The notes under the pieces: model-generated
Told to the model about the DNA's origin: nothing
Database searches by the model: none
Seen by the model: the letters and a program-made list of their open reading frames with translations, nothing else
Assembly: GCA_029556545.1 (NCBI GenBank)
Contig: JAKQEQ010000086.1
Coordinates: 1-64,000, forward strand
DNA length: 64,000 nt
From: Candidatus Hydrogenedentota bacterium
GTDB lineage: Bacteria > Hydrogenedentota > Hydrogenedentia > Hydrogenedentales > JAGMZX01
Reading direction: 5' to 3'
Position numbers and translations under genes: made by a program
Shown here: positions 8,824 to 11,661 of the stretch, piece after piece
Numbering within the stretch: position 1 is the first letter of the stretch
Layout: each line of letters begins with the position of its first letter

Positions 8824-8859
8824 GGACGGATCGGACGGATCGGACGGATCGGGCGGATC
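8824..8859 (+). repeat. 9-bp tandem repeat (GGACGGATC)x4, right of the transglutaminase gene
   Basis: Three perfect copies of GGACGGATC plus a fourth with one change lie between the two convergent stop codons. The same unit in the same orientation recurs at 11626-11661 on the other side of the helicase gene. Confidence 0.9.
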
Positions 8860-8906: not shown

Positions 8907-11522
8907 TCAGGCCGCGCTCGACACCGCCCCCGCTTTCACCAGCACCTGCTCGGGCGCGAGATTGAGTTTGAAGCCGCGTTTGGGCGTTGTCACGATGAGG
9001 TCCTGGTACTGCGGGCACGCTTCGAGGACCCGCTTGATCAAGTTGCGCTTCTGGAAGTGCATCTGGTTGGACTCGACGATGACGTCGCCCCAGACGGCCT
9101 CGTATATGGCGTCGTAGGGCACACACGCGCCGGGATGCGCCGCCAGTGCCCGGATGAGCCGATACTGCTTGTCCTGGAGCGGAATGCGCACGCCGTCGAG
9201 CTGGATTTCGCCCGGCTGGTCGTCGTCGACGATGAGGACGGGCCACGCGGTCGCGGTCGGCTGCGGCATTTCCGCCGCAGCCAAGGCCGGCTGCGCGCCC
9301 CGCTTGCGCGCCCAGGCATGCAGTCGGCGGGCCTGGGCAGCGGTGAGCCAGCGGGTGAGCGCCTTTTCGGGGACGGCCACAATCGCGGCGGGCGTATCGA
9401 GTCGTTGCGCGGCCAGGGCGAGGATATCGTTGCGGGCGAGCCCCGCGCCGCACCGCGCCAACGGCAGCGCCTCCTCGCGCAGGCCGTACTGCACGCGCTC
9501 GGACAAGGTTCGGACGCGCTCGATGAACGCGGGATCCGCACCGGCGGCGGCCGCGATGGCCGCGGTGGCGTCCACGAGCCAGCTTATCTGCTCCGCGGCG
9601 GCCAGCACCTGGCCGGCGGTAGTGTGATAGTGCTCTTCGAGGTCGTGGATCGCCGCGTGTTCAGTCCATTCATGCAGGAACAAGGCGGCCTTCATGGCCC
9701 GTACTTCCTCGAAGAAGGGTTGCGCGTTGCCGTTGCGAACGCGGTTCATGGGCGTGTCCGCCGCGAACGGTTCGTCGCGGGTGAGCCGCTTGAGCACACT
9801 CGGGTAATTCGCGTGGTCGTATTCACGCGCCGTTAGCGAGACCTGGAGCATCCGCCCGTCCACGGTCGACGCCGCCGCGAACAGCAGGTCGATGGCCGGC
9901 CAAGGCAGCGTCTCGCATTGGCCGATCCAGTGTTCGAGGGCGCGCGCCGTCTCGATGGCGATTCCCTTCGCGGCGACGGCGTGCCCGAACGGCGTGGCCT
10001 CGATGCGGCCATCGGGGTGCGACACGGCGACACCCGCGTCGACACAGCGGTTCACGGCGGCGCGCAGGCGGAATTCAACCTCGTCCAGCGTGAGTGTTTC
10101 GGCCCAGACCCAGCGCCCGCTCAAGGTACGCTCCATGAACGCCAGCACCTCGTTCAGCGTGCGGCAGGACCGCGACGCAATAAGCCGCAGCACGTGGTCC
10201 TCGAGCGGGGTTTGCGCGAGGCGCGGGTCGATGCGTTCCCGTTCGCCCTCGACGTAGCGCCGCCAGAGCGTTTCCTGGTCGAAGGGCGTGGTCGCAATCA
10301 GGATCGACCGGCCAAACACGTGGCCCGATCCGTAGCGCCCGGCGCGTCCCCCCATGTTTTCGTATTCGGTGTGGAGAATGGGCGATTTCCACGGCATGCC
10401 GAGGCGGTTGTCGTAGCGCCACTTGTCCGCCGCGATGAACACGTTGCGCGCGGGCAGGTTGAGCCCCATAGCAAGCGTGCTCGTCGATACCAGCGCCAGG
10501 ATTTCGCCGCGGCGGAAGCCCTCTTCGACCGCGCGGCGTTCCGCGGGCGAGAGGTCCGTGTTGTGGAAGGCCGCGCCGCCGGACAGCGTTTCGAGCAGCG
10601 CGGTCCGCGATCGCGTCGCTTCGAGCTTGCGCAGCGCCTCGATGGTTCGCTTCGCGGGCGGCAGGTCGAGCCGGCCCGCCAGCGATTCCGCGCCCCGCCG
10701 CGACTCGTGCCGCGCCTTCACGAATATCAAACACGCCTCGCCCGCCGACGCGAAGGCGCGGACGTTCTGCGTCAATTGCTCCCACGCCGACCCGTCGCCG
10801 GCGTCGATGAGCCGCTCCTCGCCCTCGGTGAACTCGTTGTGCGTGCGGTACCGGAATACGCCCTCGTAAAGGACGCCGTGCCGCAACTCGACGGGCCGCC
10901 GCTCGTACTGCACCAGCCGCGCGCCCATCCATTCCGCCAACCGATCCGCCCCGCCGATGACCGCCGACAACCCGATCAGCCGCCGCGCCGCGCCGCCGTA
11001 GTGCAGGATACGCGTCAACAGCAATTCCGCCATCGGCCCCCGCTCCGGGTCCGAGAGCAACTCGAGTTCGTCCGCGAGCACCAGGTCGATTTCCTCGAGA
11101 CGCTCCGGGCGGCGCACGAGCAACTGCGCCAGTTTCTCGTAGACCACCACCGCCACCGAGAAATCGCCCTCCTCGAAGTCCCGGTCGAACTCGCGCCGGT
11201 CCCGCGTCGACACAATCACTTTCAGGCCGTATGCGGCGTACTTCTCGCGGAAATCCGCGTACTTCTCCTCCGCCAGCGCCTTCAGCGGTACGAGATACAC
11301 CACCTTCTTCCGCCGCAACGCCGTCTGGACAGCCGCCATCTCCGCGATGAATGTCTTCCCCGAACTCGTCGGCGCCTGGATTAGCAAGTTCTTGTCGCCG
11401 AAAAGGTTATGCCGCGTTACCGCCAGCTCTTGTAACGGCAGCAACACTTCGCTCTCCTGCTTCCGCCACAGCTCGATAATCTCCAGGGGCACGTTGTACC
11501 GGTACAGTTCCATCATTTTCAT
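8907..11522 (-). CDS. Ski2/Hel308-like superfamily 2 helicase fused to an OmpR/PhoB-type winged-helix domain
   Basis: An 871-residue protein. Helicase motifs: Walker A PTSSGKT at 51-57, DExH-box variant DELE at 151-154, motif III SAV at 186-188, motif V STLAMGLNLPARN near 348-360, motif VI ENMGGRAGR at 388-396. The middle region resembles the helical domains of Ski2/Hel308 enzymes, which unwind nucleic acid 3'-5'. Residues about 771-855 (GEIQLDGVRIPL to TPKRGFKLNL) form a PhoB-type winged helix: QYRLIRALAAHPG, a YDAIYEAVWG segment, a recognition-helix region rich in Asn/Gln/Lys, then a beta wing. This fusion is unusual. Start MKMM at 11522 fits GAGGAG and a promoter 22 bases upstream; the longer open frame would begin before the transcription start. 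A role in repair or defence is inference. Confidence 0.9.
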   Translation of the reverse strand: MKMMELYRYNVPLEIIELWRKQESEVLLPLQELAVTRHNLFGDKNLLIQAPTSSGKTFIAEMAAVQTALRRKKVVYLVPLKALAEEKYADFREKYAAYGLKVIVSTRDRREFDRDFEEGDFSVAVVVYEKLAQLLVRRPERLEEIDLVLADELELLSDPERGPMAELLLTRILHYGGAARRLIGLSAVIGGADRLAEWMGARLVQYERRPVELRHGVLYEGVFRYRTHNEFTEGEERLIDAGDGSAWEQLTQNVRAFASAGEACLIFVKARHESRRGAESLAGRLDLPPAKRTIEALRKLEATRSRTALLETLSGGAAFHNTDLSPAERRAVEEGFRRGEILALVSTSTLAMGLNLPARNVFIAADKWRYDNRLGMPWKSPILHTEYENMGGRAGRYGSGHVFGRSILIATTPFDQETLWRRYVEGERERIDPRLAQTPLEDHVLRLIASRSCRTLNEVLAFMERTLSGRWVWAETLTLDEVEFRLRAAVNRCVDAGVAVSHPDGRIEATPFGHAVAAKGIAIETARALEHWIGQCETLPWPAIDLLFAAASTVDGRMLQVSLTAREYDHANYPSVLKRLTRDEPFAADTPMNRVRNGNAQPFFEEVRAMKAALFLHEWTEHAAIHDLEEHYHTTAGQVLAAAEQISWLVDATAAIAAAAGADPAFIERVRTLSERVQYGLREEALPLARCGAGLARNDILALAAQRLDTPAAIVAVPEKALTRWLTAAQARRLHAWARKRGAQPALAAAEMPQPTATAWPVLIVDDDQPGEIQLDGVRIPLQDKQYRLIRALAAHPGACVPYDAIYEAVWGDVIVESNQMHFQKRNLIKRVLEACPQYQDLIVTTPKRGFKLNLAPEQVLVKAGAVSSAA

Positions 11523-11550: not shown

Positions 11551-11579
11551 ATTATACTGAATAAATTTTCAGTAGTCAA
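11551..11579 (-). promoter_or_regulatory. sigma70 promoter of the helicase gene
   Basis: Minus strand TTGACT (11574-11579), 17-base spacer, TATAAT (11551-11556). The predicted start of transcription near 11544 gives a leader of about 22 bases with GAGGAG before the ATG at 11522. It also rules out the longer upstream start codons. Confidence 0.78.
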
Positions 11580-11625: not shown

Positions 11626-11661
11626 GGACGGATCGGACGGATCAGACGGATCGGACGGATC
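11626..11661 (+). repeat. 9-bp tandem repeat (GGACGGATC)x4, upstream of the helicase gene
   Basis: Four copies of GGACGGATC, the third with one change (AGACGGATC). It is the same unit, orientation and copy number as at 8824-8859, so the pair brackets the helicase gene and its promoter. Confidence 0.9.

Follow-up and report, generated by a model that had tools for sequence, protein, structure and literature searches.

A Hel308/HELQ-like helicase of Hydrogenedentota with an added OmpR/PhoB-type winged helix and a putative LexA-controlled promoter

Hel308/HELQ has been described as a repair helicase of archaea and metazoans (PMC10484726), and Hjm has been stated to lack bacterial sequence similarity (PMC2636818). 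Two features of these proteins, the ratchet and motif IVa, are defined in the same papers (PMC2636818 and PMC10484726), motif IVa as F/YHHAGL (PMC10484726). The gene analyzed here lies in a 64,000-nucleotide stretch of DNA from a Candidatus Hydrogenedentota bacterium (contig JAKQEQ010000086.1, hereafter the window) and probably encodes a bacterial Hel308/HELQ-like DNA helicase of 3'-5' polarity, a member of the SOS regulon that uses an additional winged helix as a tethered grip on duplex DNA.

The gene occupies positions 8907..11522 of the minus strand, where translation from 11522 to 8907 gives a stop-free ORF of 871 amino acids with Pfam matches and orthologues in the phylum. A longer, GTG-initiated ORF of 957 amino acids is also listed for the same gene; the start at 11522 is favored because a TTGACT-17-TATAAT promoter is found at 11579-11551. 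The gene is flanked on both sides by 9-bp direct tandem repeats, GGACGGATC (8824-8859 and 11626-11661), with six matches in the window versus 0.01 expected. Similar GTCC-rich repeats also occur upstream of some orthologues, e.g., at locus L049.

An earlier reading made from the sequence alone (the sequence-only reading) had placed the helicase in residues 1-420. The SF2 motifs do lie there, but this extent is too short, as homology to Hel308 continues to residue ~731. In an alignment of the family profile with archaeal Hel308/Hjm, residues 1-731 are matched across all five domains (E values of 1e-119 for 2zj2 and 4e-113 for 2p6r). In order (all on the minus strand), these are domain 1, RecA-like 1 (residues 1-209, 10896..11522; Pfam DEAD, Hel308 profile alignment and AlphaFold2 [AF2]); domain 2, RecA-like 2 (residues 210-420, 10263..10895; Pfam Helicase_C, Hel308 alignment and family comparison); domain 3, the internal winged helix of Hel308 (residues ~421-510, 9993..10262; 2zj2/2p6r alignment and AF2 secondary structure); domain 4, the ratchet helix bundle (residues ~511-690, 9453..9992; Pfam Helicase_dom4_arc and alignment); and the HhH-like domain 5 (residues ~691-742, 9297..9452; Hel308 profile alignment to residue ~731). 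The profile search that the sequence-only reading had proposed returned DEAD (residues 40-189, 74.7 bits), Helicase_C (residues 314-398, 41.0 bits), Helicase_dom4_arc (PF21280; residues 590-680, 43.9 bits against a cut-off of 27) and, beyond the helicase body, Trans_reg_C.

The predicted structure (AF2 with a 45-sequence alignment; pLDDT 92, pTM 0.81) is consistent with these assignments, the top nine Foldseek matches being all Hel308/Hjm (TMt 0.83-0.90), followed by Pol theta and Brr2. The scores against the curated Hel308 equivalogs NF040935, PRK02362 and PRK00254 (261, 360 and 293 bits) fall below all of the respective cut-offs (1200, 887 and 1216 bits), and we therefore refer to a Hel308-like branch and do not call the protein an orthologue. 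Since the Ski2-like class includes Brr2 and Mtr4, which appear lower in the match lists, the protein might be thought to act as a Ski2-type helicase on RNA rather than DNA. This we regard as highly improbable, because the DNA helicases Hel308/Hjm are the best matches in both sequence and structure, Pol theta comes next in structure, and the predicted regulation is that of DNA-damage genes (see below).

The protein shares with archaeal Hel308/Hjm and metazoan HELQ the order of the five domains, the motif I/Ia/V core, the motif IVa region, the HhH-like domain 5 and the ratchet tryptophan (Trp599 in Archaeoglobus fulgidus, Trp648 here), the latter being kept across the family. It differs in motif II, which is DE.H there and DELE or DELQ here; in motif III (SAT versus SAV); in motif VI, where Q is replaced by N; in motif IVa (FHHAGL versus FHNADL); and in the ratchet arginine, a position at which Hydrogenedentota show no conserved Arg. 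Further points of difference are the extra C-terminal OmpR-type winged helix, the bacterial host and the putative control by LexA. In this protein, motif II is DELE (residues 151-154, 11061..11072, minus strand) and motif III is SAV (residues 186-188, 10959..10967, minus strand), both exactly as first read, while domain 2 contains FHNTDL as motif IVa and ENMGGRAGR as motif VI. That DELE and SAV are off the norm is correct, but they belong to a family signature (DELQ/E, SAV, ENxxGRAGR). In the family comparison, motif II reads DELQ in the majority of phyla, with DELE/DELD in Hydrogenedentota, and SAV in motif III, FHNADL in motif IVa and EN..GRAGR in motif VI are seen across the relatives; F/YHHAGL and DExH were absent family-wide in the motif comparison, FHNTDL/FHNADL and DELE standing in their place. 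Being consistent across relatives, DELE and SAV are hence a signature of the family and not a sign of decay. The changes in motifs II, III and VI are possibly coupled, and the substitutions (H to E/Q in motif II, SAT to SAV in motif III, Q to N in motif VI) plus the loss of the ratchet arginine could result in altered or weak unwinding.

Domain 5 is followed by a flexible linker (residues ~743-760, 9243..9296, minus strand; pLDDT <50 at residues 746-758, 29% column identity) and then by an OmpR/PhoB-type winged helix (residues ~763-863, 8934..9236, minus strand; Trans_reg_C, CadC and response-regulator matches, AF2 pLDDT of 85 to 95). The fusion of a Ski2-type helicase to such a domain, the central claim of the sequence-only reading, was borne out with the right coordinates, Trans_reg_C being matched at residues 779-853 with 32.4 bits, above the gathering threshold of 26.2, and with 36.4 bits when the C-terminal 117 amino acids were scanned alone. 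Against the PDB, the same 117 residues gave the CadC DNA-binding domain as best match, then SaeR, PrrA, ToxR and VicR. The structure prediction that had been suggested as a check likewise gave a well-folded C-terminal domain beyond the disordered linker, its order of strands and helices fitting the OmpR fold. The possibility that the C terminus is merely domain 5 of Hel308 was ruled out by the Hel308 profile alignment, in which domain 5 is present before the winged helix; with Trans_reg_C above its threshold, the domain is also not unrelated to the PhoB type. The winged helix extends the five-domain Hel308 architecture by a sixth.

The fold and secondary structure of this domain are those of the OmpR/PhoB and CadC/ToxR-type output domains, and its PKRGF wing resembles that of CadC. 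Unlike in those systems, the domain is joined to a helicase and not to a receiver or membrane sensor, and Pfam detected no receiver domain in the protein, in contrast to an OmpR-family response regulator. Among 22 members from the phylum, mean column identity was 65% in the winged helix compared to 55, 56 and 46% in domains 3, 4 and 5 and 29% in the linker. The PKRGF wing is strongly conserved across Hydrogenedentota and, within the predicted recognition helix (AF2 helix at residues 820-835, QMHFQKRNLIKRVLEA, 9018..9065, minus strand), Q820, K825 and L828 are invariant in the 22 members.

Beyond chance-level SF2 matches, the gene was found, whole or as a fragment, in 59 of 68 Hydrogenedentota genomes and in 36 of the 38 good ones. 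It is nearly universal and single-copy in the phylum, where whole copies carry the tail. In the helicase tree the phylum forms one clade (support 0.999) in which several families are coherent and f4, f9 and f10 are not, suggesting a largely vertical inheritance. No broadly conserved neighbor gene was found in 38 Hydrogenedentota loci; larger apparent neighbor clusters were rejected as they were antisense ORFs of the helicase gene itself. The survey of the architecture and its neighbors that had been proposed thus showed helicase plus tail recurring across the phylum and in other phyla, without conserved neighbors in Hydrogenedentota. These data argue against a role in phage defence, one of the functions initially put forward. 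PADLOC does return HamB of the Hachiman system as best match (E = 7e-36), and the SF2 Ski2-like core is alike in both proteins. However, the HamB matches are confined to that shared core, and the protein obtains far better scores with Hel308 profiles (360 bits). The gene here has no defence-type distribution, being present once per genome almost throughout two phyla and largely vertical in its inheritance, and no conserved partner gene emerged from the comparison of neighbor families in the 38 loci. With the putative SOS control added, a defence role based on the HamB matches was rejected, distribution and regulation indicating a housekeeping gene, and a Hachiman-like or similar defence helicase is extremely improbable.

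The evidence on regulation comes from the promoter. A -35 element, TTGACT (11574..11579, minus strand; promoter scan, conserved in orthologues), and a -10 element, TATAAT (11551..11556, minus strand; promoter scan and orthologue comparison), form a sigma70 promoter with 17-bp spacing that matches 11 of 12 consensus positions. Its spacer is filled by a palindrome, ACTGAAAATTTATTCAGT (11556..11573, minus strand), which is an exact ACTGAA-N6-TTCAGT. Allowing for one mismatch, CTGAA-N6-TTCAG precedes the helicase gene in 35 of 40 phylum members (23 of them perfect) versus 0.3% of shuffled sequences, nearly always within the 17-bp -35/-10 spacer. In the 6.1-Mb genome of the organism itself there are three exact ACTGAAN6TTCAGT sites, at the helicase gene, at an imuA-imuB-dnaE2 operon (DnaE2, 1350 bits) and near htpG. 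The latter site (L180 5595; G000:C36:45595) lies ~240 bp upstream of htpG; a divergent gene, which by eye is metalloprotease-like, is 130 bp away.

LexA is encoded in 37 of the 38 good genomes of the phylum. Of 30 Hydrogenedentota lexA loci, 21 have the exact box before lexA, and another four, that of the organism's own genome among them, have it with one mismatch; the remaining five are loci whose start was not placed by the script. In relatives it also precedes imuA, umuDC and dnaE-like polymerase genes. In genus g6 the helicase box is GTGAA-N6-TTCAC, and its lexA box likewise has GTGAA half-sites. The Hydrogenedentota box also agrees with the SOS box of Myxococcus xanthus, CTRHAMRYBYGTTCAGS (PMC9705874). 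Owing to its recurrence before helicase, lexA, imuA-imuB-dnaE2 and umuDC genes, and its covariation with the lexA box in one lineage, we conclude that ACTGAA-N6-TTCAGT is almost certainly the LexA box of Hydrogenedentota, to which LexA would bind. At the sequence level, then, the helicase promoter carries the palindromic LexA-type box common to lexA, as expected of a regulon member, and SOS control of the helicase is well supported computationally. At locus L231 (G033:C24:106708), a LexA-type box was seen in a sigma70 spacer before a DinB/YfiT-like gene (by eye), a possible further SOS gene.

A link with the SOS response was also found outside Hydrogenedentota, where group names follow database labels and some may be mislabelled. 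In Planctomycetota, a LexA ORF (TIGR00498, above cut-off) ends 26 to 145 bp before the helicase, and in a Myxococcota group a RecA ORF (TIGR02012, above cut-off) ends ~10 bp before it. Several Zixibacteria have a palindrome, CTGCAC-N4-GTGCAG or CTGAACATCCGTTCAG, in the spacer of the helicase promoter, and this palindrome recurs, slightly varied, before their own lexA. Taken together, the shared operators and the lexA and recA gene orders indicate that the SOS link recurs in four phyla. The role in repair or recombination proposed by the sequence-only reading is hence strongly supported, by the LexA-box control and by the lexA- and recA-linked gene order. In many Zixibacteria (loci L150, L153, L157, L160, L161, L167, L170-L172, L174 and L175) the helicase gene is also immediately preceded by a short ORF whose product has a CPDCG...CPxCG zinc ribbon at its C terminus. 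An NrdJ tail was considered as its identity; the one tested (L160) gave no Pfam or NCBIfam match. In a Myxococcales assembly (G071; loci L107, L111 and L112) at least three helicase copies were found, with recA directly upstream in at least two; either mobile copies or a mixed bin may account for this.

Of the genomes from the zixibacterial phylum, 91 of 98 contained the gene, as did 4 of 4 from a Coatesbacteria group and, at the same threshold, at least 8 of 292 from Planctomycetota and at least 3 of 189 from Myxococcota. The latter two counts are lower bounds because few candidates per genome were scored, and some of these matches are more distant Hel308-type proteins that do not have this tail. 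By profile comparison, the tails of the Coatesbacteria and the Myxococcota group are related to the Hydrogenedentota domain (97 and 68% probability, respectively). A second group comprises the zixibacterial and planctomycete tails, which have no sequence link to the Hydrogenedentota domain in profile-profile comparison and no credible Pfam match; common descent of all the tails is therefore not established. An AF2 model of one zixibacterial tail (pLDDT 87) nevertheless matched OmpR/PhoB-type regulators, ArlR, CadC, PhoP and PhoB among them, throughout or nearly throughout the 50 PDB matches listed (best E = 0.0095, prob 1.00), which is fold-level evidence only. OmpR-like tails are thus widespread in the helicase family. 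At locus L123, a Hatepunaea relative has a different C-terminal extension of ~200 amino acids with no OmpR-like match, so that what is found at the tail position differs within the family. Binatia copies end at about residue 740, without the winged helix, which is therefore not needed for the basic function of the family; the gene upstream of them is not an SOS gene. Both points weigh against the interpretation favored below.

What the winged helix does in Hydrogenedentota may be considered in this light. The canonical OmpR/CadC-like fold, the invariant Q820, K825 and L828 and the conserved wing would all suit a domain with sequence-specific recognition that guides the repair helicase to certain places on the chromosome. 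This is the repair form of the targeting idea of the sequence-only reading. We consider it rather unlikely, as no candidate target sequence was found and the recognition helices of different phyla are very dissimilar; moreover, Binatia copies do without the domain, and sequence-neutral binding to duplex DNA would also predict a conserved positive surface. In a related form, the winged helix would be a true sequence reader that brings an SOS-induced motor to defined positions on the chromosome or to the operators of its own regulon, which is unlikely; if true, one protein would combine damage transcription control and fork processing.

OmpR-type domains are transcription factor domains, and with an ACTGAA-N6-TTCAGT box in the helicase's own promoter it is conceivable that the winged helix binds these boxes itself, making the helicase autoregulatory and a regulator of the translesion operon. 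The GTGAA-box lineage does also differ in the recognition helix (H822A, R826C), but two other loci, L020 (H822S) and L041 (H822Q, R826G), alter the same residues and yet keep CTGAA. LexA is moreover present, and lexA itself has the box. OmpR-type domains commonly bind direct repeats, whereas the box is an inverted repeat that matches a known LexA box. Because the box varies with lexA and not with the substitutions in the recognition helix, we consider it very improbable that the tail itself reads the LexA box.

The interpretation we favor, that of a Hel308-like motor under SOS control with a duplex-gripping tail, would operate as follows. LexA would repress the helicase through the operator that fills the -35/-10 spacer. 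Upon DNA damage, RecA-dependent cleavage of LexA would free the helicase, the translesion genes and lexA itself from repression. At a stalled or broken fork, the Hel308 body with its five domains would then load on the single-stranded gap and strip or remodel strands, while the OmpR-type winged helix, on its flexible linker, would grip nearby duplex DNA and so anchor or position the motor. Damaged forks or recombination intermediates as the motor's substrate, as well as helicase activity and polarity, are expected by analogy with the Hel308 family; the duplex grip is our proposal for the winged helix. Known SOS-induced helicases include UvrD, DinG and RuvAB of Escherichia coli, in which the same LexA-type control is applied to a DNA-processing motor, although these belong to different helicase families.

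No relevant paper linking LexA with Hel308 was found in a literature search whose coverage excluded most subscription journals and preprints. The data reveal a bacterial Hel308-like branch that belongs to the core genes in at least two phyla, both largely uncultured, and for Hydrogenedentota they yield a proposal for the LexA box and the SOS regulon. The helicase would share LexA control with translesion polymerases while carrying a DNA-binding domain of the transcription factor type. For proteins that profile searches place merely near Hel308, this offers a testable function and, for the role of Hel308/HELQ at damaged forks, an independent system in which to ask the question.
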